DNA of 36,150 bases from Methanobacteriota archaeon (lineage in GTDB: Archaea; Thermoplasmatota; Thermoplasmata; Methanomassiliicoccales; Methanomassiliicoccaceae), in NCBI GenBank assembly GCA_012519255.1, contig JAAYQQ010000016.1:1-36150 (forward strand), read 5' to 3'. Below the pieces are notes generated by a model. That model saw only the letters and a program-made list of their open reading frames with translations, ran no database searches and was not told the DNA's origin. A program made the position numbers and the translations under genes. Numbering within the stretch: position 1 is the stretch's first letter; each line of letters opens with the position of its first letter. This document shows positions 6,714 through 25,233 of this stretch, piece after piece.

Positions 6714-7775
6714 GTGAAGGTAAAGACCCGTAAAGTCAAGAAGAGCAGAATCGACGAGGTCGACTTTGACCATCTGAAATTTGGAGAGATGTTCTCCGAT
6801 CACATGTTCAGGATGGATTACACTGATGGGAAGTGGCTTGAACCTGAGATAGTTCCCTTTGGACCAATTGAGGTACTACCGTCCTTGAGCACCTTGCACT
6901 ACGGGCAAACAGTCTTCGAAGGTCTCAAGGCCTTCCGTTCCCGCGATGGCGGGATCAACATCTTCAGGCCGGACAAGCACGCTGAGAGAATGATGCATTC
7001 TTGTGAACGTGTGTGCATACCTCAAGTGGGCAAGGACATATTCGTGGATGCGGTGGAAGAGCTAGTCCGACTTGACCAGGCATGGGTACCCTCCGCACGG
7101 GGCACGGCCCTATACATCCGCCCCCTTGCTCTTGCCATGGAGTCATATATCGGAGTGAGGGTTGCTGAATCATATTCATTCTTTATCATGACCTCTCCGG
7201 TGGCTGCCTACTTCAAGGAAGGCCTCAACCCGGTCAAGCTTATGACCTCGGGTGAGTTCGTCAGGTCTTGTCCAGGGGGGCTAGGGGAGGCCAAGACTGC
7301 GGCCAACTATGCCGCATCACTCTTCCCGGCATATGATGCCAATCGTAGAGGATATGCTCAGGTCATATGGCTGGATGCTCTGGAGGGCAAGTATGTTGAC
7401 GAAGTAGGCACAATGAACATTTGCTTCGTCAAGGATGACACGCTGATCACCCCATCGCTGGAGGGAACCATACTTCCAGGCATCACACGAGACAGTGTCT
7501 TGCAGCTGGCCCGTCACTGGGGCATGAAGGTGGAGGAACGTCGCATCTCCATAGATGAGGTTATGGCTTCCATAAAGGATGGAAGTATGACCGAAGCATT
7601 TGGCACCGGAACGGCTGCAGTAATTTCGCCGATTGGGGAGATATATCACAAGGGCGAGACTGCAATCATAAACGATGGCCGCATCGGTCCAGTGTCTCAA
7701 AAGCTGTACGACACTATCACTGGCATCCAGTATGGTGAGATCCCTGACCCATTTGGGTGGATCCACACCGTCTGA
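6714..7775 (+). CDS. ilvE: Branched-chain amino acid aminotransferase
   Basis: PLP enzyme of fold class IV that interconverts Val, Leu and Ile with their 2-oxo acids, the last step of branched-chain amino acid synthesis. The 353-aa protein has LHYGQTVFEGLKAF (61-74), the family substrate loop; RPLALAMESYIGV; GGLGEAKTAANYAASL, where K194 should be the Schiff-base lysine; DEVGTMN; and GTGTAAVISP binding the PLP phosphate. Length and motifs match the larger bacterial/eukaryotic BCAT type. The start is GTG at 6714; no nearer start precedes the conserved VDFDHLKFG. It appears to be a single-gene transcript, with a TATA box upstream and a T-rich stretch after the stop. Confidence 0.95.
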   Translation: MKVKTRKVKKSRIDEVDFDHLKFGEMFSDHMFRMDYTDGKWLEPEIVPFGPIEVLPSLSTLHYGQTVFEGLKAFRSRDGGINIFRPDKHAERMMHSCERVCIPQVGKDIFVDAVEELVRLDQAWVPSARGTALYIRPLALAMESYIGVRVAESYSFFIMTSPVAAYFKEGLNPVKLMTSGEFVRSCPGGLGEAKTAANYAASLFPAYDANRRGYAQVIWLDALEGKYVDEVGTMNICFVKDDTLITPSLEGTILPGITRDSVLQLARHWGMKVEERRISIDEVMASIKDGSMTEAFGTGTAAVISPIGEIYHKGETAIINDGRIGPVSQKLYDTITGIQYGEIPDPFGWIHTV

Positions 7776-7851: not shown

Positions 7852-7898
7852 TTTAATATATAATCCAACATCTACTGTACATTGGATGATACATCCAA
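7852..7898 (+). promoter_or_regulatory. btu/cob operon promoter with inverted-repeat operator
   Basis: TTTAATATATAA (7852-7863) is a strong TATA box. A perfect inverted repeat, TTGGAT-GATAC-ATCCAA, occupies 7882-7898, exactly where transcription should start (about 25 bp after the TATA centre). A further ATCCAA half-site (7863-7868) abuts the TATA box. The same 17-bp design recurs at cobT (19526-19542; 14 of 17 bases identical). A bound protein would cover the initiation site, so repression, presumably by cobalamin status, is inferred. No B12 riboswitch-like leader is evident; the predicted leader is only about 52 nt. Confidence 0.65.
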
Positions 7899-7934
7899 CT
7901 ACGGTCAGCGGTTGCTAGTCGGAGGAACTCAGTT

Positions 7935-9047
7935 ATGGACTCGAATAAGCGTAGGATAGTAGCCATCGCTTTGGTTGCCGTGCTGGTAGTGGCGGCGACG
8001 GCAGTGGTAGTAGTAAGTGGAATGTTGAAGCAAGAACAATTCAGTTCGTCGGTGACAGACGCCGCGGGGAAATACGTTGCCCTGGACAAGCGTCCAGAGA
8101 GAATAGTATCCTGTTCCCCTGCCATCAGTGAGATCGTCTGTGCACTGGGCCTTGGCGACAAGCTAGTGGCGGTGACCGATTATGATGATTATCCTGCCGA
8201 GGCGGCAAAATTAGTGGAAGATAAGCACACCATCGGAGGATACTACACTCCCAGCTTCGAGAAGATCTTAGAATATGAACCCGATCTGGTGCTGGTCAAC
8301 AGTCGCACGGGGCCTCATCAGGAACTCGCTGAACGTCTGTATGATGCCAAGTACACCGTTGTCCAACTGTATCCTCAGGAGAATCTCGAGGAGGTCTACA
8401 AGAGCATTGAGCTGGTCGGTAAGATCGCTGGCAAGACTGACAAAGCTGACGAACTGATCTCATCCATGAAGGCCTCTATTTCGGACGTGGGGTCAAAGGT
8501 GAAGGATTTGGAGAAGCCGAACGTCATGTATGTGACTTATGCCGAGGCCGGTTTCACCAGCGTGTATCTTACCGGCAGTGGGACAGCGGTTGATGAGATC
8601 ATCGCCCTCAGTGGGGGAAAGAACGCCTTCGTTGATCTGGAAGGATGGGTCGCTCCCTCTGATGAAGAGTTCAAGATAAGAGCTAAGTCCATAGATTGCA
8701 TGGTCATCACCAGCATGTACTCCGGTAGCGATGTCGACGACATGAACGCCTATTTCCAGGATGATGACCTCTGGAAGGAGAGCCCCGCGGTGAAGAACAA
8801 TACGATCTTCTATCTCCAGGGACAGGGCGAGAATATCTTCAATCGTCAGTCGGTGAGGATGGTCGATGCGGTCCAGATGATGGCCCAGATGCTGCATCCG
8901 GATGCCTTCGAGACAAAGGTTCCCTACGATGAGACCGGCGCTACCCCGAACGTGATAGGAGACAACTATCTCGATTACCTTACTCTCGAGGCCTCGCCGC
9001 GATCCTCCTCTGGTACGGTGATGGTAGCAGCGTGCCTGCGCGGATAA
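7935..9047 (+). CDS. btuF: Corrinoid ABC transporter substrate-binding protein
   Basis: Extracytoplasmic binding protein that captures cobalamin or related corrinoids and docks on BtuC. Residues 7-29 form one hydrophobic segment. No lipobox cysteine follows, so an uncleaved membrane anchor or simple signal peptide is likely. The mature part has the periplasmic-binding-protein type 2 (helical backbone) pattern: RPERIVSCSPAISEIVCALG, GYYTPSFEKILEYEPDLVLVN, and later LSGGKNAF and TIFYLQGQGENIFNRQSVRM. Siderophore-binding relatives look similar; placement at the head of a cobalamin salvage operon favours corrinoids. The last about 20 residues (SPRSSSGTVMVAACLRG) look unlike the family and may be a species-specific tail or a late frameshift. 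Confidence 0.85.
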   Translation: MDSNKRRIVAIALVAVLVVAATAVVVVSGMLKQEQFSSSVTDAAGKYVALDKRPERIVSCSPAISEIVCALGLGDKLVAVTDYDDYPAEAAKLVEDKHTIGGYYTPSFEKILEYEPDLVLVNSRTGPHQELAERLYDAKYTVVQLYPQENLEEVYKSIELVGKIAGKTDKADELISSMKASISDVGSKVKDLEKPNVMYVTYAEAGFTSVYLTGSGTAVDEIIALSGGKNAFVDLEGWVAPSDEEFKIRAKSIDCMVITSMYSGSDVDDMNAYFQDDDLWKESPAVKNNTIFYLQGQGENIFNRQSVRMVDAVQMMAQMLHPDAFETKVPYDETGATPNVIGDNYLDYLTLEASPRSSSGTVMVAACLRG

Positions 9048-9065
9048 GGTCTCTGGGGTGTGAGA

Positions 9066-10115
9066 ATGATGGACGGTTCGATGGTGAACAAGACTCGGGC
9101 TAAACTATTTCTTGTCCTGGCCATCGGCCTCCTGACTCTTTTTTTCCTTTTGGTGGTCTCCTGGTCACTAGGGGCAGTGGACATCGCGTTCTCTGATACT
9201 CTTGGTTACGTATGGAATATTATAGTTAATTTTGGACCGATGCCTGCTCACGCGGGGGAGCAGATCATATGGTCCAGAATGGTCCGCTCAGTGGCAGTTA
9301 TTGGAGTGGGCATTGGCCTCTCGGTCTCCGGCGTGGTCATGCAGGCTCTTATCCGGAACCCATTGGTTGACCCCTACGTAACTGGAATATCATCCGGCGC
9401 TGCCCTGGGTGCCACACTTTCCCTACTGGCCGGTGTATCGCTGGTGCAGGTCGCAGAATATACCACCCCGCTGGCCGCGTTCATAGGGGCGCTTATCACT
9501 TTCTTCATCACCATGGCCCTGGCCGAGGCCTCAGGGGGGCGACCAGTGAGCTATATCCTCAGTGGGATAATTATAGGCATTGCGATCTCCTCCTTTACCA
9601 CAATTCTTATTGTCTTCAGTGAGGATAATCGCCTGCATGGGGCAATGTTCTGGCTGTTCGGCTCGTTCGCCTACATGTCCTGGACCAAGGCCCTGCTTAT
9701 CATCATTCCCGTCTTGATACTATGCAGCATAATCCTTCTCTATGCTCGTGAACTCAACGTAATATTACTTGGAGATGAGAATGCCAGGAATCTTGGGTTG
9801 AACGTCAAGGTGTTCAAACGAATATCCGTGTTGGTAGTGTCGGTGCTCACTGCCGTCTCGGTCGCGTTCTGCGGCATCATCGCATTCCTTGGCCTCATTA
9901 TCCCGCACACTGCTCGCATGATCGTCGGTGGCGACCATCGCCTCCTCATCCCTACATCCATGGTGATGGGCCCCATCGTCCTGCTTGCGGCGGATATATT
10001 TGCCAGGATCATCATACGTCCGGTTGAATTGCCAATAGGCGCCATCATCTCACTCGTGGGCGCTCCGTTCTTCATTTATTTAATGATCCGAAGGGGGAAG
10101 GAATATGGAGTATGA
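9066..10115 (+). CDS. btuC: Corrinoid ABC transporter permease (FecCD/BtuC family)
   Basis: Inner component of the cobalamin importer; pairs with BtuD and receives substrate from BtuF. The protein is almost entirely hydrophobic with roughly ten membrane segments. It carries the FecCD signature GVVMQALIRNPLVDPYVTGIS followed by SGAALGA, and GIIAFLGLIIPHTARMIVG, the loop that contacts the ATPase. Length about 350 aa is normal. ATG at 9066 is preferred; GTG at 9060 and ATG at 9069 are alternatives in the same frame, with GGGGTG just upstream. It overlaps btuD by 11 bp, so the two are probably translationally coupled. Confidence 0.92.
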   Translation: MMDGSMVNKTRAKLFLVLAIGLLTLFFLLVVSWSLGAVDIAFSDTLGYVWNIIVNFGPMPAHAGEQIIWSRMVRSVAVIGVGIGLSVSGVVMQALIRNPLVDPYVTGISSGAALGATLSLLAGVSLVQVAEYTTPLAAFIGALITFFITMALAEASGGRPVSYILSGIIIGIAISSFTTILIVFSEDNRLHGAMFWLFGSFAYMSWTKALLIIIPVLILCSIILLYARELNVILLGDENARNLGLNVKVFKRISVLVVSVLTAVSVAFCGIIAFLGLIIPHTARMIVGGDHRLLIPTSMVMGPIVLLAADIFARIIIRPVELPIGAIISLVGAPFFIYLMIRRGKEYGV

Positions 10116-10905
10116 TCCAAAGGTCTCTCTAATTATCGAAGGGGTTCGTTTTGCATACAATGGCACGGATATTCTAGATGGCGTGGAGTTCGAAGGCCAG
10201 CATGGTGAGCTCATTGGACTGATCGGTCCCAATGGATCGGGGAAGAGCACACTGCTTCGCTTAATGAATGGGGTGCTCAAACCAAAGGTCGGAACGATCA
10301 TGATGGAAGGGCGTTCCATTGATACGATGAAGATCGATGAGATTGCCCGCATCTGCGCCAACGTCCCCACCGAGTTCTCTGAGGAATTCAATCTATCCGT
10401 TCAGGATCTGATATCCCTGGGGCGCTATCCGTTTGCCAAGGGACTGTGGTGGGATGACCATGAGGACGAGGAGATGGTGATGGATGCGATGAGGAAGTTC
10501 AACGTCTATCATCTCCGTGACCGTCGTTTCTCTGAGCTATCCTCTGGAGAGGGGCAGCGCGTCCTTCTGGCCAAGGCGGTGGTGCAGTGCCCCCGAGTCA
10601 TGTTGGTGGATGAGCCATCGGCCCATCTGGATCTTAGATATAAGCTGGAGGTTATGGAACATCTCCGTGATCTGCTCGGCGACAAGGTCACTATTGTCAT
10701 TGCCTCACATGACCTCAATCTTCTAGCCAAGTATTGCGATAAGGTAATGATATTATCTGAGGGACGGATTGTGGCGATCGGAACGCCTGAAGAAGTGATC
10801 ACTCCAGAGGTGGTAGAGCAGGTTTACGGCGTTGAGGTGGCGGTTCTGAAGGATGGAAATGACATATTCACCATCCCCAGGCGCACCAGGAGGAAGGAGA
10901 AATGA
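10105..10905 (+). CDS. btuD: Corrinoid ABC transporter ATP-binding protein
   Basis: ATPase of the BtuCDF importer. Walker A is GPNGSGKST (41-49), the Q-loop region is around 88-93, the signature is LSSGEGQR (145-152) instead of the common LSGGQ, Walker B is VMLVDE (165-170), and the switch histidine is in ASHDLNLL. The 266-aa length is usual for FepC/BtuD-type proteins. The altered signature is within natural variation for this family. Its ATG lies inside btuC, and its end overlaps cobD as ATGA. Confidence 0.92.
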   Translation: MEYDPKVSLIIEGVRFAYNGTDILDGVEFEGQHGELIGLIGPNGSGKSTLLRLMNGVLKPKVGTIMMEGRSIDTMKIDEIARICANVPTEFSEEFNLSVQDLISLGRYPFAKGLWWDDHEDEEMVMDAMRKFNVYHLRDRRFSELSSGEGQRVLLAKAVVQCPRVMLVDEPSAHLDLRYKLEVMEHLRDLLGDKVTIVIASHDLNLLAKYCDKVMILSEGRIVAIGTPEEVITPEVVEQVYGVEVAVLKDGNDIFTIPRRTRRKEK

Positions 10906-12023
10906 TCGAACAGAAGGTCCGTCCAGAGGTTCGGCCGATGGCTCGCCCCCGCCATGGGGGGGACGTCTGGCACTATGATGGTATAAAAGATTACAGTTCC
11001 AACGTCAACCCTCTTGGGGCGCCGCCTAGATTGGAAGAATACATTATGGAGGCTGCTCGGGACCTTCACAACTATCCCGATGATACCTCCTCCCAGCTCA
11101 GGGAGGCGATTGCCCGTCGTTATGATGTCGGAGCGGAGAACGTCATTGTCGGTGCCGGTTCTGCCGAGCTGATCCGTCTATTCCCCGAGGTCTTTGTTTC
11201 TCCGCGTGACCGGGTCATCATTCCGTGTCCTACATTTTCCGAATACAGCTTCGCCTGCCAGCTGATGGGCGCCCGTATTATCGAATATCCGTTGCCATTC
11301 GATAATGACTTCTCACTTGATGTGGCCGAGCTGATGGCTCGCCTGGATGGGGTCAAGGCTGTTTATGTATGCAATCCAAACAATCCTACCAGCCGCATGG
11401 TCGGCCGGAGAGACCTCCTTGATCTGGTGCAGGAGGCCGAGAGGAAAGGCACGCTAGTCTTCCTCGATGAGACGCTGCTTGAGCTATCTTCTCGTTCAGA
11501 TGAACTCTCTCTTGTCCCCGAGGTAGAAGGGCAGGATAATCTATTCATCATCCGTTCTTTCACCAAGGCCTTTGCGATGCCAGGGATCAGGGTGGGCTAT
11601 GGTCTGGGTTCCAGGGAGATGATACGCTTCCTTGAGGCCGGGCGGCTCACTTGGAATCTCGGCACCATTGAGCAGCGGGTGGCCACACGACTTATGGAGA
11701 ACGAGCAGGAGCACGTTGCCAGGGCGGTGCGTCTGCTGGAGAAGGAAAAGGGACGCATGCAGGTTGGTGTGGAAAAGCATCTTGGACCTGTACCGTCCCC
11801 TCATTCTTACTTTTTCTTCGCCCCTCTTGGTGATCTGGGCGTCTCCTCATCCCAGTTCCGTACCGCCATGCTTCGCCACGACGTGCTGGTGCGTGACTGC
11901 TCCTCCTTTGGGGAACGCTGTGAGGGGTACTCTCGCTTCTGCGTGAAAACTCCAGAAAAGGATGATGAATTCCTTGTCGCGCTTGGTCTCGCCGTCGAGG
12001 AGATAAGGGAAGGGCGGCATTGA
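10902..12023 (+). CDS. cobD: L-threonine-O-3-phosphate decarboxylase-like aminotransferase
   Basis: PLP enzyme of fold type I. In cobalamin synthesis it decarboxylates threonine phosphate to (R)-1-amino-2-propanol O-2-phosphate, the linker attached by CbiB. The 373-aa protein has DYSSNVNPLGAP near the N-terminus (the SxNxNPLG feature of CobD rather than HisC), VCNPNNPTSR, FLDET (D189, pyridine-N partner), and RSFTKAFAMPGIRVGY with K222 as the PLP lysine. HisC is the close relative, but a separate hisC is present at 32113-33159 and the neighbours are btuD and cbiB, which decides for CobD. Starts as ATGA within the btuD stop. Confidence 0.9.
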   Translation: MIEQKVRPEVRPMARPRHGGDVWHYDGIKDYSSNVNPLGAPPRLEEYIMEAARDLHNYPDDTSSQLREAIARRYDVGAENVIVGAGSAELIRLFPEVFVSPRDRVIIPCPTFSEYSFACQLMGARIIEYPLPFDNDFSLDVAELMARLDGVKAVYVCNPNNPTSRMVGRRDLLDLVQEAERKGTLVFLDETLLELSSRSDELSLVPEVEGQDNLFIIRSFTKAFAMPGIRVGYGLGSREMIRFLEAGRLTWNLGTIEQRVATRLMENEQEHVARAVRLLEKEKGRMQVGVEKHLGPVPSPHSYFFFAPLGDLGVSSSQFRTAMLRHDVLVRDCSSFGERCEGYSRFCVKTPEKDDEFLVALGLAVEEIREGRH

Positions 12024-12024
12024 T

Positions 12025-13011
12025 TTGGAACTGCTTTACTATGCCCTATTAATTCCCACCCTAGCACTGCTGATCGATCTTACGTTGGGTGAGCCCCCCA
12101 ATCGCTTCCACCCTGTGGTATGGATGGGCAAGACCATCGATTTCCTGGACCGCCGGGTGCGAAAGGGGAACCCTCGTCATGAGAAGGCGCTGGGCATACT
12201 TGTCATCCTTCTCCCCATCTTACTTTTCGTCTTCGTCTTCACACTATTTCTGGCGATACTCCGAGATCTGTTTGGAGCATTGGTGTGGGCAATTGCCAGC
12301 GCGATCATTTTCAAGACCATGTTTGCCATCCGCGCATTGGAGACTCACACTGCCCCCATGATTGATGATCTCCAGAAGGGAGACCTGGACGCCGCCAGGG
12401 AAAAGGCTGCCATGGTGGTATCCCGGGATGTTACGCAAATGGATAAGCCCCATCTGATCTCCTGTGCCGCGGAGACGGTCTCGGAGAACCTGGTGGATAG
12501 CGCCCTCTCCCCCATGTTCTTTTTCGGTCTCGCCGGCGTCCCTGGGGCAGTTTTTCTACGCGTGTCGAACACGGCCGATGGTATGGTGGGATATCTTTCC
12601 GATCGCCATCGCCATGTTGGGTGGGCGGCCGCTCGCCTGGATGATTGCGTCCACTATGTGGTAGCACGGCTATCGGTGCCATTCATTCTTCTCTCTCTGG
12701 CCTTGCTGGGTAAGGATTGGCGTAAAGGGTGGAGGGCTGGCCGGAGAGATCATCGGCAGACTTCCAGTCCCAATAAGGGCTGGCCCATGGCCACCGTGGC
12801 TGGTGGTCTGGGGGTGAAGTTTGAAAAGGCTGGACACTACAGCATGGGGGAAGGGGATCTATCCTCCGACCCCATGGTTATTGGAGACACCATCAAGGTG
12901 ATGAAGCTGACCGCAGTCCTATTCTTTGCATTGGTGCTGCTCCCTTTATTTATGCTCATGGGCATCCATGTCCAGCTGTCCCTTGAGGGTTTGCTGTTCG
13001 GTCTGATATAA
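12025..13011 (+). CDS. cbiB: Adenosylcobinamide-phosphate synthase
   Basis: Integral membrane enzyme joining aminopropanol phosphate to adenosylcobyric acid to give adenosylcobinamide phosphate. The 328-aa protein has LIDLTLGEPPNRFHPVVWMG at the N-terminus, the amphipathic HISCAAETVSENLVDSALSP, FLRVSNTADGMVGY with conserved Asn-Thr-x-Asp-x-Met, and GWPMATVAGGLGV. These are the standard CbiB motifs. At least four hydrophobic helices are visible. The start is TTG at 12025, one base after the cobD stop; no ATG precedes the conserved region. GGGCGG about 5-6 nt upstream is the likely ribosome site. Works with the neighbouring CobD product. Confidence 0.92.
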   Translation: MELLYYALLIPTLALLIDLTLGEPPNRFHPVVWMGKTIDFLDRRVRKGNPRHEKALGILVILLPILLFVFVFTLFLAILRDLFGALVWAIASAIIFKTMFAIRALETHTAPMIDDLQKGDLDAAREKAAMVVSRDVTQMDKPHLISCAAETVSENLVDSALSPMFFFGLAGVPGAVFLRVSNTADGMVGYLSDRHRHVGWAAARLDDCVHYVVARLSVPFILLSLALLGKDWRKGWRAGRRDHRQTSSPNKGWPMATVAGGLGVKFEKAGHYSMGEGDLSSDPMVIGDTIKVMKLTAVLFFALVLLPLFMLMGIHVQLSLEGLLFGLI

Positions 13012-13020
13012 GGTGATAGG

Positions 13021-14172
13021 TTGAATGAGTTCGATGTCAAGGTCCGTATTGAGGATAATGGGAAAAGACCGGTAGCGATCATGACGCTGCCGGGACGGTA
13101 CAGGTTGCTCAGCTCCACCATTATGGGAGGGGGCTTTACCGAGACAGACACGGTGTTCTTCTACGAGGTGTCTCTTGGATATGACAACTCCTATCCAGAA
13201 GAGGATATGGAAAGGGTCCGTCGAAAGTTCGGTCTTCCGGATGATGCAGTTGGTTTCATGACTGCGGCGGATGTCCGCCGGGTCATTACCACCCGGAAGG
13301 AGGAGGTCAACGGGAAACAAGCCATCGCCGTCGCCACCGCCGGCGTGACCAATGCCGTCTATGCTGGAGAGCGCCTTCCCCAGGAACTTATTGATACCCT
13401 TCCTGCACACCAGCCGCCATCCCCCGGCACGATCAACGTTCTTGCGGTCACTGACACTCCCCTGTACGATTGCGGTCTTGCCAATGCATTTATCACCATC
13501 ACCGAAGCCAAGACCGCCGCCCTTATGGACACCGGTGTGGAGGGAACAGGTACCACCAGCGATGCTGTTTCGGTGGCCTGCCCCAGAGGCGGAGGCAGCA
13601 AGTATGCTGGCACGGCCTCGGATATAGGTGTTGCCATGGCCAGGGCGGTGCGTTCAGCCGTGGCCGAGTCGATACGGAAATGGAACAATGGTAAGAAGGC
13701 GAAGGATTTCCTCACCCGGCTGGATGAGATGGGGGTAGGGGAAGAAGAGATGTGGGGGGCGGCCCGGAAGCTGTACGTGCCGGATCCTACCTGGGAAGAG
13801 GAAATGATCCATGAACGATTCTGCAGACACCTCGCGGTCCTGCGCAAGGATGTCAACGTCAACGCCATGATCTTCGCTGCCATCAACATGGAGGATATGG
13901 GCAAGCAGGACGCCATGTATGGGCTGGATGGGGGGAGGTTCATGGAAGATCCTGTACATCTGGTAGCGGATGAGATGTTGGGTATGGCCCTTTCCCAATA
14001 TATCGCCGGGACCAAGGGTATGTTCGAATACGTCCGCTATGATAAGAAGAAGCCCGGCGTGCTGGGCGTGTTGGGGCCTTTCCTTGATGACATTGTAGCC
14101 TCTCTAATTGGAGGAATCATGTCGCGCATATACACCGAGCTGCTGGAGGGAGAGGATAAATTAGTTTCTTAG
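13021..14172 (+). CDS. cbiZ: CbiZ-CobZ fusion: adenosylcobinamide amidohydrolase plus α-ribazole-phosphate phosphatase
   Basis: Two domains in 383 aa. Residues about 1-225 match CbiZ, which hydrolyses non-native (adenosyl)cobinamides or pseudo-B12 to cobyric acid for salvage: VATAGVTNAVYAG, TINVLAVTDTPLYDCGLANAF, TEAKTAAL and SVACPRGG. Residues about 230-383 match CobZ, a PgpA-like phosphatase shown in Methanosarcina mazei to replace CobC: MFAAINMEDMG-like helix, then DPVHLVADEMLGMAL and PFLDDIVASLIGGIM. The second domain would dephosphorylate α-ribazole phosphate or the cobalamin phosphate after CobS. The combination puts the salvage entry and a late step in one chain. TTG start at 13021 has a good ribosome site (AGGTGATAGG). 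It lies 9 nt after cbiB. Confidence 0.85.
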   Translation: MNEFDVKVRIEDNGKRPVAIMTLPGRYRLLSSTIMGGGFTETDTVFFYEVSLGYDNSYPEEDMERVRRKFGLPDDAVGFMTAADVRRVITTRKEEVNGKQAIAVATAGVTNAVYAGERLPQELIDTLPAHQPPSPGTINVLAVTDTPLYDCGLANAFITITEAKTAALMDTGVEGTGTTSDAVSVACPRGGGSKYAGTASDIGVAMARAVRSAVAESIRKWNNGKKAKDFLTRLDEMGVGEEEMWGAARKLYVPDPTWEEEMIHERFCRHLAVLRKDVNVNAMIFAAINMEDMGKQDAMYGLDGGRFMEDPVHLVADEMLGMALSQYIAGTKGMFEYVRYDKKKPGVLGVLGPFLDDIVASLIGGIMSRIYTELLEGEDKLVS

Positions 14173-14177
14173 GCGTC

Positions 14178-14960
14178 CTGAAGGCGCAGCTGTCATTATT
14201 TACGGTAATTCCTGTCCACATTTCGGGTGAGGATGTCAACGAACTTTCCCGTCACTTTTGGACGGTGCCGTTTGTTGGCCTACTCTACGGCATCGTGGCC
14301 GGCAGCCTACTCCTCCTCATCGGATTGCTGGATCCCCTGGTGAGCGCGGTCATCACCCTATTTGCCATCCACGGGCTCAATCGTTTTCTACACTTCGATG
14401 GTCTCATCGATCTAGGCGACGGCCTCATCGCCACTGGGCCGCACGAGAAGCGAATGGCTGCCATGAAGGATACCCGTGTGGGGGCTGGAGGGGTCGGCTT
14501 TGGCCTACTATTCTCTATTCTTCTCATAGCTGCCCTGGCCTTTGTCGTCACGGGTGCCCCTTCTGCTGCCATGGTTTTCTTCCTTCCGTTGGCCATGGAG
14601 GTACTGGCTAAAAATTCCATGATCACCGCGGCCGCGGTGGGAAGGCCAAGAGAAGGAATGGGCAGCCCATTCGTAAGTAACACTCCGCCAGGTCATGCAT
14701 TATTATCTGCAATACTGTCATTTGTTATTCTCTTACCAGTTCTGACTTATCTAACAGCATGGGAGCCATGCATGGCATTGTTCGTTGCTCTGCTGGTACT
14801 GGCAAGCTCCGTGACCGGAATAGTTGTGGCTGCACAGGCGAAAAAGAGTTTCGGCTACGTGAACGGGGACGTCCTGGGAGCGACCAACGAACTGGCCAAG
14901 CCCGTGGTGCTGCTGATCGGCATGGTGGGGGTGTTACTGTACCTGTCGATGTTCTCCTGA
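14178..14960 (+). CDS. cobS: Cobalamin 5'-phosphate synthase, without a canonical start codon
   Basis: Integral membrane enzyme joining adenosylcobinamide-GDP with α-ribazole (phosphate). HFDGLIDLGDGL is the CobS catalytic Asp-rich motif, followed by MAAMKDTRVGAGGVGFG and GDVLGATNEL near the end, with about six hydrophobic helices. Family homology clearly begins upstream of the first GTG (14265): codons 14175-14264 encode VLKAQLSLFTVIPV then RHFWTVP, the typical CobS N-terminus. In that stretch there is no ATG, GTG or TTG. CTG at 14178 gives a family-like N-terminus and is used here. ATT at 14160, 9 nt after a GGAGGG, is another option. A sequence error is also possible. Confidence 0.85.
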   Translation: MKAQLSLFTVIPVHISGEDVNELSRHFWTVPFVGLLYGIVAGSLLLLIGLLDPLVSAVITLFAIHGLNRFLHFDGLIDLGDGLIATGPHEKRMAAMKDTRVGAGGVGFGLLFSILLIAALAFVVTGAPSAAMVFFLPLAMEVLAKNSMITAAAVGRPREGMGSPFVSNTPPGHALLSAILSFVILLPVLTYLTAWEPCMALFVALLVLASSVTGIVVAAQAKKSFGYVNGDVLGATNELAKPVVLLIGMVGVLLYLSMFS

Positions 14961-15562
14961 CAGCGGGAGGCCGGGGAAGTCGTATGCGCGATGTCCCCGG
15001 CGAGAAGCCCCTGGTCCCTTTACTTGGCCGGCCCATGATCGACTGGGCGCTAGATGCGCTCCTAAATTCGGAAGGCATCGGCACCCTGTATGTTTCGGTA
15101 AGTCACAACGTTCCCCAGACAATGAAGCATCTGGCGGGCCTGGGCATAGAGGTCATCATGACATCTGGCACTGGTTATGTGTTCGATCTGGGGGAGGCCA
15201 TGAATCACCTGCGGTCCGATGATGTACTGGTCTGCCCAGCCGATATGCCGCTCATAACTTCTCAGGGAATCGAAGAAGTGCTGGAATATTTCCGCCATGC
15301 CCGCGTCGCCTCGCTCTCGGTGGCCGTGCCTTCAAGCATCGTGAGATCGATCGGCGCGATACCCTCTTACACAGTTATGGCAGAGGGCCGCGAGGTCGTG
15401 TTATGTGGGGTCAGCGTTGTTGACCGGGAACTGATGCTTTCTGGGAATACGCTCAGCCAGGGATTCATGATCACCGAGGATGAGCAGTTTGCACTGAACG
15501 TGAACACGCGAGAGGAGCTGAACAGGGCGGAGAGTCTATTACGTCGCCGCAGGAAGAAGTGA
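14945..15562 (+). CDS. cobY: Adenosylcobinamide-phosphate guanylyltransferase (archaeal CobY type)
   Basis: Nucleotidyltransferase moving GMP from GTP onto adenosylcobinamide phosphate, the archaeal replacement for CobU. The chain opens VDVLLTAGGRGSRMRD, the GT-A-like nucleotide-binding signature, followed by GEKPLVPLLGRPMIDW and CPADMPLI. The end, FALNVNTREELNRAESLL, is the usual C-terminus. The start is unresolved: homology begins about codon 14945 (GTC), inside the end of cobS, yet no ATG, GTG or TTG lies nearby. CTG at 14957-14959 overlaps the cobS TGA but would remove the first strand; ATG at 14996 would remove the GTP loop; ATGs at 14759 and 14768 would create a 190-200 bp overlap. The frame is -1 relative to cobS. 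Confidence 0.83.
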   Translation, partial: VDVLLTAGGRGSRMRDVPGEKPLVPLLGRPMIDWALDALLNSEGIGTLYVSVSHNVPQTMKHLAGLGIEVIMTSGTGYVFDLGEAMNHLRSDDVLVCPADMPLITSQGIEEVLEYFRHARVASLSVAVPSSIVRSIGAIPSYTVMAEGREVVLCGVSVVDRELMLSGNTLSQGFMITEDEQFALNVNTREELNRAESLLRRRRKK

Positions 15563-15736
15563 GGGTCGATCGAACATCTGGCCCCGGGCGGTCGATCACG
15601 AACACGCGGTAACAATCCCGAAGAAATATCAGAATTATCCAGTCTGGACGTAAAAAGCTCTGGTAAATGATAGATAGGGGCGGAACGGGTCAAAATTAGC
15701 AGCGGCGCTTAAACAGCCCGCCAGCGGGCGATATGT

Positions 15737-16210
15737 TTGAGGAGAGGCACCATCGCTTTCTTGGCCATCATATGTATTGTCATCATCGCTGGGAGTATCT
15801 TTCTCTATCAGCAGATTCAGCAGAGGGATGCGCTGAGGAATGTTCAGATCAGCGTAGATGGAGTACAGATCGAGAGTGTCGATGCAGGTAGTGCGACCCT
15901 TAACATCTCCCTTCGGATAATCAATCCCAATTCTATTGCAGTCACCATCGACCGGACAGATTATACCGTGTTCATCAATAACGATAGCCTGGGAAGCGGA
16001 AAGAATCTACATAGGGTGACGATTCCGGCTGGCGGCTCCGTCATCATTTCTCAGCCCTTTACCGCCCCATATGTAGGAGCGACCCATGGCATTTGGTCGT
16101 ACATGACACAGGATGAGGTAGACTGGAGAATCGTGGGAACGGCCTATTTCGATACGCCGCTGGGAACGATAGCGATCCCCTATGAATACAGTGGCACCGC
16201 CAAGACATGA
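15737..16210 (+). CDS. Membrane-anchored LEA14/WHy-domain protein
   Basis: 157 aa. Residues about 6-24 form a hydrophobic anchor or signal (IAFLAIICIVIIAGSIFLY). The rest is a single LEA-2 type β-sandwich: VQISVDGVQIESV, then NISLRIINPNSIAVTIDRTDYTVF split by the typical NPN motif, then VTIPAGGSVIISQPF. Such proteins are seen in plants and archaea; their molecular role in archaea is unknown, with stress or envelope functions proposed. The start is TTG at 15737, the only one that retains the anchor. A weak TATA-like CTTAAAC lies about 26 bp upstream. It is 174 bp after cobY and probably has its own promoter. Confidence 0.72.
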   Translation: MRRGTIAFLAIICIVIIAGSIFLYQQIQQRDALRNVQISVDGVQIESVDAGSATLNISLRIINPNSIAVTIDRTDYTVFINNDSLGSGKNLHRVTIPAGGSVIISQPFTAPYVGATHGIWSYMTQDEVDWRIVGTAYFDTPLGTIAIPYEYSGTAKT

Positions 16211-16570
16211 TGGGGCCGGCCACAAGGGAGGGTTGGTTCCGTTATGCCTTGGTATCGGCGGCACATTCATGGGGCCATTCCTTATTTTATCGTCTCACTC
16301 CTCGATGTTCGTTCTGATCGGTCATGGGCCAGACAGTATGAGGTGGCGCCACAAGTGCAGTGAAGGTCGATCTGATGGAGCAACTTTAAAATTGATCTAG
16401 CCCTGCCAGTCGAGCTTATACCTGGTGCTGAGATCGCCTCGACCAGGCGGAAGATCTGCCGAACCCGTAAGGTTCGAACCAATGGCCAATCTTATCTGCC
16501 ATGGAGTCGAAAGATACGTTTTTCAAGGAAGATCTCTCCCTGCCATGATATTCTCGTTCATCATCGGCCA
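16211..16570. other. Convergent intergenic region without a visible gene
   Basis: The region between the 3' ends of the LEA14-like and potassium-channel genes. Short frames have no family-like content. The only structure is GAACC 16461-16465 facing GGTTC 16471-16475, overlapping the perfect palindrome GGTTCGAACC at 16471-16480. It could form a small hairpin, but a tRNA fold was tested and does not work. Confidence 0.4.
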
Positions 16571-17272
16571 TCATTTACTAACCCGCTCTCTAGGCTTCCA
16601 TGTGTCTACCAGCCTGGATATCAGGATGGCCATGTAGAGAACGCCCGTGAGCACCTCCATGATGACCAGGCCTCTAGCCTCTTGAGTCATGGGTACAATA
16701 TCGCCATACCCAAGCGTGGCCAGGGTGACGAAGCTGTAATAGATCATAACGGGAAAATTCATAACCGTGTCCGGTAGGACGGTGTCCTTGAATGAGCCTG
16801 GAGCCATAGACTCCAAGACGGTGAACACACTCGCCCATGTGAGCCCAATTAGAATATAGCCCGATATGGCCACCCAAACGGTGGTGGATGTGACGATCTT
16901 GGTCTGGAACAATGAACGTATAAGGAGAAGGGTTACCCAGGCGAGGGTCGCGCTCGAAAAGATATATGATGCAGTTTCCAGCACAATCTCGCCCGTCAAC
17001 AGGGAGAGCCATCGCGCCGATATGGATAATATGAGGAAAAATAGGGCGATCAATTTAAGCCGTCTGTTGCCACGGATGGTCATGACGGCCGCTATGAGCA
17101 TCACTGAAAACAGGGTTGTAAGGGCCACGGCGCCCGTCTCACCTTTCGTGAATGGGATAATGGTCATTAACATGGCCAATGATGCCCAGAGGCCGACATA
17201 GGTCAGCCTGGGTGAGATATACTTCCACCATTCCCGCAGCCTGTGAAGTATGGGTAACTGCGCACCATTCAT
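16571..17272 (-). CDS. Six-TM potassium channel without an RCK domain
   Basis: Voltage-gated-like ion channel subunit of about 233 aa. Hydrophobic segments appear at about 24-42, 47-67, 73-93, 103-121 and 133-157, then the pore helix and filter TLATLGYGD (185-193, numbering from the upstream GTG), then a final helix 203-223. TLGYGD is the K+-selective filter. The fourth segment has few Arg/Lys residues, so strong voltage sensing is doubtful. There is no C-terminal RCK or cyclic-nucleotide domain; the protein ends soon after the last helix. ATG at 17272 is taken; GTG at 17278 with AAGGTGG upstream would add two residues. No obvious functional partner nearby. Confidence 0.85.
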   Translation of the reverse strand: MNGAQLPILHRLREWWKYISPRLTYVGLWASLAMLMTIIPFTKGETGAVALTTLFSVMLIAAVMTIRGNRRLKLIALFFLILSISARWLSLLTGEIVLETASYIFSSATLAWVTLLLIRSLFQTKIVTSTTVWVAISGYILIGLTWASVFTVLESMAPGSFKDTVLPDTVMNFPVMIYYSFVTLATLGYGDIVPMTQEARGLVIMEVLTGVLYMAILISRLVDTWKPRERVSK

Positions 17273-17497
17273 CTTCACTCGTCCACCTTCCCGCCGTTAC
17301 CTCGCCCGCAACCGGCAACACCCACGGAGGGGTCTGGTTCATCATACGTATGGACGGAGTAAATAATCCATTTACCACTGTCCCGCTCGCTCATTGCTTC
17401 GTTGTATGTTCACGTCACAGCCGTCTCGCATACTTCTTGGAATTAAGAAAATGAGGAGGGCCAGTGGTGAGGCATACTGATCATGGCGGCAAACGTC

Positions 17498-18205
17498 TCA
17501 GGTCGACATGGATCGCACTGGCCCCATGGGGTGGTAAACATACTGGGACAGCATTTTCTCGGTCTCGAACGGCTGGGGTACATTCTCCCATACTACTCCT
17601 CCTCCCGAATGGAGTCGGAGGCCAGGTTGCCTTTTAATCATCCCGCCGACCTCTGCCGAGGTGGCGATGGTTATATCTCCAAAGCCGAAGAGCCGTTCCA
17701 GCATGGGCTGGTTTAGTGAGATGTTCTGTACCTTGTCCAGACCGGTATCGTTGAAATGGCGACTCAGGAATCCATACTGGCTGATGATGCGCCGGTCGGT
17801 GAGAACGAACACGGTATTCCTCCACTGGAGGTAGGTGATCAGGAGTGGCAGCGCACCAAGGACCACTGGGATAAAGACCAATACATCCAGGGAACGGTCG
17901 ATGGAGACCAGAAAGGCGACGATCACGCCTGCAATCGCGGCAGGTATCCCCAATCGTCTGTCGAATGGTATCAGCAACCCTGCCAGGATAAGGGCGATCA
18001 CCAGGTATAGTACGCTGCCATCATAGGTCAATATAATACTGGCAAAAATGAGTGCCAGAATGATCATTGCCAGGGGCTTCAGCAGCACCACGACAATGGC
18101 CGGTCTACTCTCCCATATTATCTTCTCACCGGGCACAAGGTGCCTGCCGTCCAGCATATTTCGTGTGTGCAGCTGAACTGCTTCTGTCGATGCCTGGGCA
18201 GTCAT
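17498..18205 (-). CDS. Membrane protein with bacterial-type PH domain (bPH2, YdbT-like)
   Basis: 235 aa. Four hydrophobic segments (about 36-60, 64-81, 87-102, 107-126) precede a bPH2 domain (about 129-190) with the typical WRNTVFVLTDRRIISQYGF, then TGLDKVQNISLNQPMLERLF, then GFGDITIATS. A short stretch before the first helix (VPGEKIIWESRP) is also typical of the family. Function is unknown; family members are thought to act at the membrane, perhaps in envelope stress. TATA-like TTTATATT on the minus strand near 18281-18288 may be its promoter. Confidence 0.78.
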   Translation of the reverse strand: MTAQASTEAVQLHTRNMLDGRHLVPGEKIIWESRPAIVVVLLKPLAMIILALIFASIILTYDGSVLYLVIALILAGLLIPFDRRLGIPAAIAGVIVAFLVSIDRSLDVLVFIPVVLGALPLLITYLQWRNTVFVLTDRRIISQYGFLSRHFNDTGLDKVQNISLNQPMLERLFGFGDITIATSAEVGGMIKRQPGLRLHSGGGVVWENVPQPFETEKMLSQYVYHPMGPVRSMST

Positions 18206-18365
18206 ATCGCGCCTCCGCCTGGCGGTCGAGTCTACCCCGGCCCATTGTCATCCACATGGGGCCGAAAGTTGACAGACCGCAATATAAATTCACGTCAGAA
18301 ATGAGTATATTATAATTCCTAATCTAGGCAATTGGGTGGAATCGTTAACGTCGGCGACGAACTCG

Positions 18366-18383
18366 TAAAAAAAGGAAAGATTT
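18366..18383 (-). terminator. Oligo-T terminator after cobT
   Basis: On the minus strand the sequence after the cobT stop reads TCTTTCC then seven T residues (18373-18367). It starts about 16 nt after the stop and matches the oligo-T signal used by archaeal RNA polymerase. Confidence 0.6.
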
Positions 18384-18398
18384 GGGGGGCCTGGTGAC

Positions 18399-19505
18399 TC
18401 AGCGTCGTGAGACCAGGCGGGCGTAGTTCTTTTCTATCTCATCGTTGAGACCGTGAGATGTGACTCGCCCTTCGCTGCTGGCCATAGCGGCGATGCATGC
18501 TCCTCCTGCTCCCACACCCTCCTTCACCAATCCAGTCTCATAGATCTTGAGACCGTCGAAGCGGGACAGGGAGAAGTTCAGGTTCGCTGCCAGTACCGGG
18601 ACTTCGGCTATCTGGGAGACGAGGTGGCACAGATCGGAATGTTCATCTTCGGCTACCCAGCGTGTTGTGCCGATGGCCACGTTATCCAGCACCGTGTCAT
18701 CCATGCCCTTGAGGACAGCGAGCACGGCGGCCATCTGAGTGCCTCCCGCCATCAGGACAGGAATGCTCTCGGCAGCTCCGGCGATCAGCCCAGCCGCCGG
18801 CGCCATCATCGGATCCCCCAATGCCTGAACCGCAGCCATGGGGTCGAGCTTAAGCGCTTCCCGGCTTAATCCACAAGCGTTGATCCCTTCCTCCACCACT
18901 TTTTGCTTGAGATCATGAGGGTTTACAGGGAAGGTACTGGAGACTTTGCCATTGGCATCATAGCCTAGAGCGGTAAGCACGCCAAGCGCGGTGGTCGTCC
19001 CGCCGGGGACAGATTCTGCCACCACCAGACAATCTGTGGTTTTGGCCAGGTTCTTCCCTGCCACTACGGCGCGGTCGTATGTCCTCTCGGCGTTCTTGAC
19101 GGACTTTCCGGTGCGGATGTCCTCACCTGGATTCCCATCAACCTCAAAATAGGGAGCGTGGGGTTTAACCCTCAGGCCTCCGTTCAGGACGAAGACGGGC
19201 ATGGGTGCCAGCTTCAGGGCAGACATGGTGATGAGTCCTGGAGTGGGAATGCCATCAGGGGTGATGGGCACCCCTTCAATGCACTTGCACCTTCCATAAT
19301 AGAGCAGCTCCATGTCTGCGGCAGGCGTATAATCGGTAATATCGGGATTGGCCCCTGCTGCTGAGATGCCAGGTATTTTGGCAGTGTCCGTATTGGCGAT
19401 CACGCAGCAATAGGTGGGGGTCTTGCCCCAGAACTTGTCTATAAATTCCTTCCCCTTCTCCTCTTCTAAACAGAATGTTACATCTTTAGGGACCTTAAAC
19501 GTCAT
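18399..19505 (-). CDS. cobT: Archaeal CobT-type nicotinate-nucleotide phosphoribosyltransferase
   Basis: Activates the lower-ligand base by transferring ribose phosphate from nicotinate mononucleotide, giving an α-ribazole phosphate for CobS/CobZ. The 368-aa protein belongs to the long archaeal branch (as in Methanocaldococcus), not the E. coli-length form. Visible signatures are AESVPGGTTTALGVLTALG, DPMMAPAAGLIAGA, VLMAGGTQMAAVLA and KEGVGAGGACIAA. It supplies the step missing from the btuF-cobY operon, although it is 3 kb away on the other strand. The two are linked by the shared operator motif in their promoters. ATG at 19505 has its own TATA box. Confidence 0.88.
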   Translation of the reverse strand: MTFKVPKDVTFCLEEEKGKEFIDKFWGKTPTYCCVIANTDTAKIPGISAAGANPDITDYTPAADMELLYYGRCKCIEGVPITPDGIPTPGLITMSALKLAPMPVFVLNGGLRVKPHAPYFEVDGNPGEDIRTGKSVKNAERTYDRAVVAGKNLAKTTDCLVVAESVPGGTTTALGVLTALGYDANGKVSSTFPVNPHDLKQKVVEEGINACGLSREALKLDPMAAVQALGDPMMAPAAGLIAGAAESIPVLMAGGTQMAAVLAVLKGMDDTVLDNVAIGTTRWVAEDEHSDLCHLVSQIAEVPVLAANLNFSLSRFDGLKIYETGLVKEGVGAGGACIAAMASSEGRVTSHGLNDEIEKNYARLVSRR

Positions 19506-19524
19506 TCACATCAGCCTCGCACTA

Positions 19525-19567
19525 GTTGGACTATATATCCAACCGCATGCTCACAGAGCTATTTATA
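19525..19567 (-). promoter_or_regulatory. cobT promoter with the same inverted-repeat operator as btuF
   Basis: Minus strand: TATAAATA at 19567-19560 is an excellent TATA box. Then a perfect inverted repeat, GTTGGA-N7-TCCAAC, occupies 19543-19525; plus strand 19526-19542 reads TTGGACTATATATCCAA. The predicted transcription start (about 19538) is inside the repeat, as at btuF. Leader length to the ATG is about 33 nt. Confidence 0.65.
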
Positions 19568-19589: not shown

Positions 19590-20633
19590 TTAAGAAAGGA
19601 TGTTTTTGGCCAGGCCCTTTAATGGTAGATATTGGGAATTATTCTCGCAGAATCGCATCGTGGGATGATTGGGTTCGATGACCTCAGATATCGCGAAGGG
19701 CACATTGGTACGGAGATGCTCTCCGCTAAGGGAAGAAGTCCCATGATCGACGATAAGTGCGACCCTGTATCCGATCAGTAGATCTAGATTCTCCATGAGA
19801 ATGTCATCCACCTCTCTGAGCATGCTGACTTTCTGGTCTGGTGCCCTCCGGTGGCTAATGTCATCAGTTTCTTCGACATGCATAAGCACGTCGCCGGAGC
19901 GGAGCATGCGGAACGCTTCCTGGAACCCGCTCCACATATTGTCCACAACCTTGCGGCGCATTTTCAGCAGCCCCCCCACTCCCAGGGCGGAAGGGCTCTT
20001 GGAGATCATGTCCATGCTCTTGGCTTCGGGAATGCACCGATGCTTCTCGCCCTGCTCGAGAGCTCCTCCTCCCCATGGGAGGATGGTCAGCCCATCCATA
20101 TCTCGAGAGGTCTTGTGGATAAACTCGCCGAAGTCGCCCAGATCAACCACGGGGCCTGGAATGGGGGCGGGCGGTGAGGGGAAATCCCAAATCTCGTCGG
20201 AGTCGACAGTCATAACTCCCCTACCATCCTCATAGAAGTAGAAGCGAGGGTTAAGGTCGCCCAGCATGTCGAGATTATGTACAATGGCCTCCTGGAGGGA
20301 TGAACCCATCTGTGGAGACACGCGGTAGGCCCACTCTATTGACCCACTCGTCATTTGCACAGGGGAGAACCGGTATGCGATCCTGTGTGGTTTCACCGGC
20401 ACGCCCAGGCCTATGGCCTCGATCAGGCCACGGGGTGTTTGCAACCGCTTCCCGGTCAGGAATTCAAGAAGAAAGAGGTGAGTGTATTCTCGTCCATCGG
20501 TTTGGCCGAGGACGCCATGACTCGCCACCATATCCATGAATGGCTTCTCGAAATATCCAAGGGGGGTGTGGCCACCCAGTGTGGGAACCTGTTCGTCGGC
20601 AGCTCCGTCGAGGAGAATTATCAGAGTGTTCAT
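19590..20633 (-). CDS. ApgM-like (archaeal phosphoglycerate mutase) alkaline-phosphatase-superfamily protein
   Basis: 347 aa. The N-terminus LIILLDGAADEQVPTLGGHTPL matches cofactor-independent phosphoglycerate mutases of the archaeal type, with the metal-binding Asp in LDGAAD. Later HVEETDDISHRRAPDQKV matches the second metal site (HxxxxDxxxH), and VALIVDHGTSS matches the third. Typical ApgM is about 400-410 aa; the central region carrying the GxxxxCN-like and substrate-binding parts is shortened and not recognisable. So glycolytic mutase activity is doubtful. ApgM relatives have been proposed for other phosphotransfer roles, such as homoserine kinase. Being next to cobT raises a cobalamin-related role, a guess only. 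GGGGAAG gives a good ribosome site at ATG 20633. Confidence 0.65.
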   Translation of the reverse strand: MNTLIILLDGAADEQVPTLGGHTPLGYFEKPFMDMVASHGVLGQTDGREYTHLFLLEFLTGKRLQTPRGLIEAIGLGVPVKPHRIAYRFSPVQMTSGSIEWAYRVSPQMGSSLQEAIVHNLDMLGDLNPRFYFYEDGRGVMTVDSDEIWDFPSPPAPIPGPVVDLGDFGEFIHKTSRDMDGLTILPWGGGALEQGEKHRCIPEAKSMDMISKSPSALGVGGLLKMRRKVVDNMWSGFQEAFRMLRSGDVLMHVEETDDISHRRAPDQKVSMLREVDDILMENLDLLIGYRVALIVDHGTSSLSGEHLRTNVPFAISEVIEPNHPTMRFCENNSQYLPLKGLAKNILS

Positions 20634-21198
20634 TAACTTCCCCTTTATTGGTAAGATTGATGATATGGAGTTTGGATAATAAATCTTGCTTAAGATTAGA
20701 ATTCTTGAGATTGACTCTTAGATGGTAGAGGAGTTGAGGAAAGTAAATAGCCTATCCTTGAATACGGGTCGGGATAAGGGGCTATTCCATTGAGGGACAA
20801 GGTATGGTAGGAAGGTCAGGACATCCACTCCTTCCAGAAGATATTTGGGCATTCATAGACCTCCCGTATGATACCGGCTGTCAATATGCAAGGTGAGACG
20901 GCGATGTTACGAACATCTCCGTTGCTGGTAGTTGAGAATGCTCCATTCAGAGAAAGGAAGTACTGGTAAGGGCCAGTGGGGCGGAATATCCCCTTGTCAA
21001 GATTCTTGGAATCGCCCGCCCCACTGGCTCCCAGAAATATACATACTATAGAAACATCATTTTTGCCCGCTTTTTAATCAATAATTCGCATTATCTCCGC
21101 GTCATTCGTTTAGTATTCTATTGGTCTCGTTATTGATAACCAGATTGGAACGTATTTGAGGGTAGATGGAGAAATCAGGGTAGAATCACTCAAAAGGG
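20634..21198. other. Long intergenic region; possible gene remnant on the minus strand
   Basis: Holds the promoter sides of two divergent genes. TTTATTATCC on the minus strand near 20674-20685 may be the ApgM-like TATA box. A frame of 86 codons is open on the minus strand from 21073 to the TGA at 20816. It reads plausibly (for example RPTGPYQYFLSLNGAFS) but has no ATG or GTG start. Chance openness of that length is common, so it is not called a gene. GTTATTGATAAC at 21129-21140 is a small inverted repeat before the next gene. Confidence 0.3.
20972..21028. repeat. 13-bp perfect inverted repeat with 31-nt loop
   Basis: GCCAGTGGGGCGG (20972-20984) is exactly complementary to CCGCCCCACTGGC (21016-21028). 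The GC-rich stem is much stronger than surrounding AT-rich sequence. It may be a structured RNA element or a mobile-element relic; no similar copy was seen elsewhere in the window. Confidence 0.6.
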
Positions 21199-25145: not shown

Positions 25146-25233
25146 GCTCTAGAAATAGGCCATGCGGATATGAACTTGACGAAGGATGAAAGCGAGGATT
25201 TATGATTGGACTATATCATCCCGGGATGTGAGT

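Follow-up and report, generated by a model that had tools for sequence, protein, structure and literature searches.

A palindromic operator of a cobalamin regulon in Methanomassiliicoccales and its candidate DUF4443 regulator

The stretch of DNA analysed here (the "window") comprises positions 1 to 36,150 of contig JAAYQQ010000016.1 from an archaeon of the order Methanomassiliicoccales (assembly GCA_012519255.1). It carries genes for the uptake and completion of cobalamin (vitamin B12), led by btuF on the plus strand and by a cobT-like gene on the minus strand. The promoters of both contain a copy of a 17-bp palindrome, TTGGAT-N5-ATCCAA, the one at cobT differing at a single base. This palindrome is confirmed as a real operator of a genome-wide B12 (corrinoid) regulon, and a winged-helix protein of the DUF4443 family is proposed as its reader.

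Operators at the btuF and cobT promoters

The features of the two promoters are as follows.

7882-7898, no strand: primary operator TTGGATGATACATCCAA of the btuF-cob transcript, a perfect 6-5-6 palindrome
7852-7861, plus strand: TATA box TTTAATATAT of the btuF promoter, predicted from the sequence
7852-7868, no strand: weak secondary site TTTAATATATAATCCAA, a 10/12 match overlapping the btuF TATA box
19526-19542, no strand: cobT operator TTGGACTATATATCCAA, over the predicted start
19560-19567, minus strand: TATA box TATAAATA of the cobT promoter, likewise predicted

A first-pass annotation of the window had described the btuF and cobT sites as sharing 14 of 17 bases, and reading the sequence bears this out. 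The cobT operator TTGGACTATATATCCAA has a single deviation from the 6-5-6 consensus, a C for a T. The btuF 17-mer TTGGATGATACATCCAA recurs identically on three other contigs of the same genome (C53, C54 and C110). These two sites are the only exact matches to TTGGA-N7-TCCAA in the window, in which 0.06 matches would be expected from first-order Markov shuffles; one of 300 shuffles gave two. At both promoters the operator appears to span the transcription start, as had been suggested, if one takes the start predicted some 27 bp downstream of the TATA box. The first-pass annotation had overlooked the secondary site TTTAATATATAATCCAA. It is offset from the btuF operator by exactly 30 bp in the upstream direction and could partly be the TATA box itself.

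The annotation had also listed two weaker relatives of the operator. The element at 20672, near an ApgM-like gene, matches at 9/12 positions in the window, and the best matches upstream of ApgM orthologues of the same family reach 7-8/12, which is about background. The element at 25206, before a flavin reductase-like gene, has the wrong spacing and is absent from the genome scan allowing two mismatches. Their membership of the regulon is not supported and both were dropped. No B12 riboswitch was found in the window, where no such family reached the Rfam gathering threshold, in agreement with the first-pass annotation.

The genes next to the two operators are listed below.

7935-9047, plus strand: btuF, corrinoid-binding protein (Peripla_BP_2; PF01497, E 1.9e-34)
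9060-10115, plus strand: btuC, permease (FecCD; PF01032, E 1.5e-87)
10105-10905, plus strand: btuD, ATPase (PF00005)
10902-12023, plus strand: class I/II aminotransferase-fold protein (PF00155)
12025-13011, plus strand: cbiB (PF03186, E 4.6e-85)
13021-14172, plus strand: cbiZ, adenosylcobinamide amidohydrolase with a C-terminal PgpA-like part (PF01955, E 1.1e-52; PF04608)
14265-14960, plus strand: cobS, cobalamin-5-phosphate synthase (PF02654, E 2.7e-34)
14759-15562, plus strand: cobY-like nucleotidyltransferase (PF12804 at residues 66-182); the true start lies inside the open reading frame
18399-19505, minus strand: cobT-like phosphoribosyltransferase (TIGR00303, E 2e-119, above cut-off)
19590-20633, minus strand: ApgM-like phosphoglycerate mutase (PF01676/PF10143), upstream of the cobT operator

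The aminotransferase-fold protein is probably the threonine-phosphate decarboxylase CobD, judging from its PF00155 match and its position before cbiB. The ApgM-like gene is a conserved neighbour of the cobT operator, with synteny in a relative (locus L215). It has no conserved operator of its own, and nothing places it in the regulon.

The regulon in the genome and across the order

The genome to which the window belongs (G000; 1.75 Mb in 149 contigs, 97% complete) contains TTGGA-N7-TCCAA at 17 places, compared with none for the pattern read backwards. The perfect form, TTGGAT-N5-ATCCAA, occurs ten times against zero for the reversed controls. Besides btuF and cobT in the window, the genes preceded by perfect or one-mismatch sites are cobQ (C53), cbiT within a cbi operon (C18) and, on C110, further copies of btuC and btuF. 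Paired sites lie before a CbpA/CbpB peptide-maturase pair on C5 (72 bp apart) and before a zinc alcohol dehydrogenase operon on C43 (71 bp apart). A nitrogenase-like operon (C139) also follows a site, and the site on C54 has no evident gene. Sites on C70, C95 and C104 have one or two mismatches and lie in coding DNA or have no clear target; they are probably due to chance and were set aside. McrA (PF02249) was not found in this genome, and for this reason the organism is not called a methanogen.

Within the order, 37 of 41 genomes have the motif, the highest number being 18 copies, and the control pattern matched once in all of them together. Targets were assigned by position and similarity, using the DNA around the sites from G000 and 20 relatives. 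Among the 134 perfect sites in these 21 genomes, 77 are at B12 genes, 25 are at other recurrent targets and 32 have no assigned target. The enrichment at cobalamin genes that the first-pass annotation proposed as a check is thus present. The B12 targets are btuF, btuC, cobQ, cobT, cbiT, cbiX, cbiM, cbiZ, cobN and an operon for an energy-coupling factor (ECF) transporter with DUF4430 proteins. Counted by genome, btuF is a target in 14, followed by the zinc alcohol dehydrogenase operon in ten, cobQ in seven, and cobT and the DUF4430/ECF operon in six each. The sites of the window are also conserved at orthologues, those at cobT being perfect sites in six further genomes (G003, G004, G008, G010, G027 and G040). 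Neither of the outcomes by which the first-pass annotation could have been refuted was thus observed.

In most cases no more than about 100 bp separate the start codon from the site centre. The longer consensus reads AGTTGGATG-NNN-CATCCAACT, its information reaching symmetrically to A/G at -10/-9, G/C at -2/+2 and C/T at +9/+10. Second copies of the operator are 6.5-fold commoner within 150 bp than the background, and spacings of 29-30, 33-35 and 70-73 bp are favoured.

Some sites fall within coding sequence or in the gap between convergent genes, as would be expected if the palindromes were chance matches or a dispersed repeat. However, the controls of the genome gave no match, and the sites persist at orthologous promoters in otherwise diverged DNA, which makes this explanation hardly credible. 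The palindrome is found above chance, is conserved at orthologous promoters, and its targets share a B12 function. In a sample of 194 genomes of the phylum, it is enriched only in this order; it occurs in none of 27 genomes of the same class belonging to other orders, and the remaining sampled genomes are at about chance level.

Several of the loci with operators carry genes of other kinds. In the G000 locus on C5 (L016:6827-8478), a radical SAM maturase, CbpB (TIGR04163, 493 bits), lies behind the paired operators, and a 31-residue open reading frame (6932-7024) matches the CbpA model TIGR04164 below its cut-off (E 3.4e-6). The CbpB promoter carries a site in five genomes, and the CbpA/CbpB pair brings a ribosomally made, modified peptide (RiPP) into the regulon. 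The second commonest target, on C43 in G000 (L018:4165-7152), encodes a zinc alcohol dehydrogenase and a Glycos_transf_3 protein, often together with a ferredoxin-like protein; we know of no B12 role for this operon. At L025:4793-8226 (C139), L120, L139 and L154, a NifH-NifD fusion and NifK-like proteins are found behind or next to the operator, and the corresponding genes in G037 adjoin cbiZ and a cobN-like gene. These nitrogenase-like proteins scored below the cut-offs of the F430 and nitrogenase models. In G037 and G015 (L122 and L136) the operator is followed by a class II-like ribonucleotide reductase (PF02867 and TSCPD).

The C54 site (L020:7476-7492) is a perfect operator accompanied by a TATA box, and it lies between the convergent genes for geranylgeranyl reductase and mevalonate kinase. 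It is kept in G000, G001, G003 and G004 despite diverged surrounding DNA, and might possibly be the promoter of a small RNA. Alignment of the site from six genomes showed that the palindrome is kept, and no conserved small gene was recognised in it. A TrmB-like protein near this site was considered as the regulator and rejected, as it belongs only to the synteny of that locus.

A candidate regulator and its signal

The first-pass annotation had postulated a DNA-binding regulator, for which the enrichment, the conservation and the lack of a riboswitch argue strongly, and a candidate family was found. In G000 the candidate is encoded outside the window (C135:24781-25386, minus strand), behind S-adenosylmethionine (AdoMet) synthetase. 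The protein matches PF14544 (E 7.9e-35) and, above cut-off, PF22167 and PF21715, giving an N-terminal winged helix-turn-helix part and a C-terminal DUF4443 part. The helix-turn-helix region of the DUF4443 proteins (GR...GEG..R) is nearly invariant. DUF4443 is present in 40 of 41 genomes of the order, and operators recur close to its gene. A short DUF4443 winged-helix gene is situated just upstream of a site in G017, G028 and G040, and a site follows the DUF4443 stop codon by 20-210 bp in seven genomes (G060, G348, G372, G017, G040, G028 and G031). A site with one or two mismatches is found behind the stop codon in G019, G022 and G025. One family of the order has few sites, and there a perfect or somewhat degenerate copy directly follows DUF4443.

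Outside the order, a first sample contained the motif in six of seven DUF4443-positive and in 29 of 160 DUF4443-negative genomes (Fisher p 3e-4, a value that is optimistic as the sampled genomes are related, which weighs against the assignment). Three of the six (G045, G060 and G185) have their sites at B12-type genes, and the rest resemble chance. A larger scan yielded five more DUF4443-positive genomes, in which the motif was predicted beforehand, and all five had a perfect site. These sites are before btuF (G229), before beta-propeller/DUF4430-type genes (G338, G340 and G348) and directly behind DUF4443 (G348 and G372). Combined, a perfect site is present in 11 of 12 DUF4443-positive genomes outside the order and in none of the 27 DUF4443-negative genomes of the same class, although the former count overstates the functional sites, because G051 lacks a perfect site despite having DUF4443, and those in G052, G056 and G080 resemble chance matches. 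Since 20 of the 27 genomes lacking both motif and DUF4443 have cbiB, the motif follows the DUF4443 protein and not the pathway. DUF4443 thus occurs wherever the operator is enriched and is absent elsewhere, with the exceptions of G013, G020 and G051.

The exceptions and the chance-like sites count against DUF4443 as the reader, and further observations do so too. G020 has three perfect sites and only a long (338-residue) DUF4443 paralogue, and G013, which is 67% complete, has sites and no detected DUF4443. The perfect sites without an assigned target, given above, belong here as well. G185 and G229 should be counted once, because their btuF regions are identical; these regions (L218 and L238) come from bins of different genera, probably as a result of misbinning. 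Finally, in many genomes the gene directly before DUF4443 is that for AdoMet synthetase.

This last association gives rise to another explanation, in which the operator and regulon are real and the reader is a different protein, DUF4443 merely hitchhiking behind AdoMet synthetase beside a site-bearing B12 transporter operon. The synthetase-DUF4443 pair is itself conserved, so the transporter may be its neighbour by common descent. A protein with XRE-HTH and CBS domains is also found near the DUF4443 locus in several genomes, and G020 lacks a short DUF4443. However, on the G185 contig (L218) DUF4443 lies in a quite different B12 operon without AdoMet synthetase, in the order site-btuF-btuC-btuD-...-cobS-...-cobY-DUF4443-cobT. 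The correct prediction of the motif in the five new genomes and the joint absence of motif and DUF4443 from the 27 genomes of the class also speak against another reader, which is considered improbable. The XRE-HTH/CBS gene is divergent from AdoMet synthetase and is not the first choice as regulator. At L230:3998-5882 the genes for AdoMet synthetase and DUF4443 overlap, and the pair is conserved across families.

A Fur-family protein (PF01475) is divergent from cobQ across the site in G002-G004, and one adjoins the site at cbiM in G010. As the regulator it is very unlikely, since G000, G001, G007, G009, G015, G017, G020 and G037 all have several sites and no Fur protein. Although linked to sites in two genera, it was rejected as a general regulator, being absent from G000 and 16 other genomes; the protein could itself be a target of the regulon.

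TTGGAT-N5-ATCCAA is thus most likely bound by a DUF4443 dimer that would repress when corrinoid is plentiful. An operator over the start of transcription is in the classic position for archaeal repression, and this position, together with the targets, suggests a repressor responding to B12. A dimer of the PH0730-like winged-helix protein with its C-terminal DUF4443 domain would bind the operator over the predicted start, 20-35 bp past the TATA box. With corrinoid, or an indicator of corrinoid, in plentiful supply, the bound protein would block RNA polymerase. When corrinoid is scarce it would release the operator, allowing expression of genes for uptake (btuFCD and ECF/DUF4430), salvage (cbiZ, cobS, cobY and cobT) and de novo synthesis (cbi, cobQ, cobN, cbiX and cbiM).

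Corrinoid is proposed as the signal because of the targets. The same operator and protein might instead respond to cobalt, AdoMet or methyl-group status, which is possible and rather unlikely. Cobalt would agree with the presence of cbiM, cbiX and chelatase genes among the targets. However, the commonest targets import whole corrinoids (btuF and, by inference, DUF4430/ECF), and corrinoid-uptake targets are also found in G060, G348 and G372, which lack cbiB and in which cobalt control makes little sense. AdoMet is conceivable because its synthetase is so often encoded with DUF4443, but no AdoMet or methionine gene is among the recurrent targets.

Consequences and comparison with known systems

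The DUF4443/PH0730-like proteins may tentatively be regarded as general archaeal corrinoid-sensing repressors, with the regulon of this order reaching CbpA/CbpB, the alcohol dehydrogenase and nucleoside-phosphorylase-like operon and the nitrogenase-like reductase. If so, these three systems would be unrecognised parts of corrinoid or cobalt acquisition. The regulon gives a functional handle on the CbpA/CbpB peptide, on the DUF4430 surface proteins with their ECF transporter, and on the nitrogenase-like complex and the alcohol dehydrogenase operon. With DUF4443 as the protein, the operator as a 17-bp probe and the promoters named above as targets, a candidate archaeal B12 regulator can be tested directly.

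Among solved structures the nearest is that of PH0730 from Pyrococcus horikoshii (PDB 2p8t), a homologue (E 5e-16) with the same two-part architecture. PH0730 is described as a hypothetical protein in the PDB, and no function for it was found in the literature. Among the transcription factors of P. furiosus it is listed merely as a winged helix-turn-helix family (PMC6316755). The DUF4443 domain, for which this PDB structure already exists, would be a candidate for a new domain that binds small molecules.

The bacterial cobalamin riboswitch is alike in the kinds of target (btuFCD, cbi/cob and cobalt transport) and differs in being an RNA element, none of which is present in the window. NrpR, the nitrogen repressor of methanogens, is archaeal and is predicted to bind inverted-repeat operators in promoters (PMC3087415). 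It differs from the DUF4443 candidate in protein family, signal and regulon.

Literature searches on the CBL-box, DUF4443 and the CbpA/CbpB model names gave no useful matches. Rodionov et al. reportedly predicted the CBL-box in 2003 as a DNA signal, as opposed to a riboswitch, that precedes B12 genes of archaea and would be read by a hypothetical regulator. The present motif may be the CBL-box. To our knowledge, a predicted DNA box is all that has been described so far for archaeal B12 genes, and a regulator has never been identified. What is new is the extent of the regulon across the order, the protein proposed to regulate it and the targets that were not expected. Whereas the regulator of the CBL-box is hypothetical, the present motif has a candidate regulator and has been mapped across an order.

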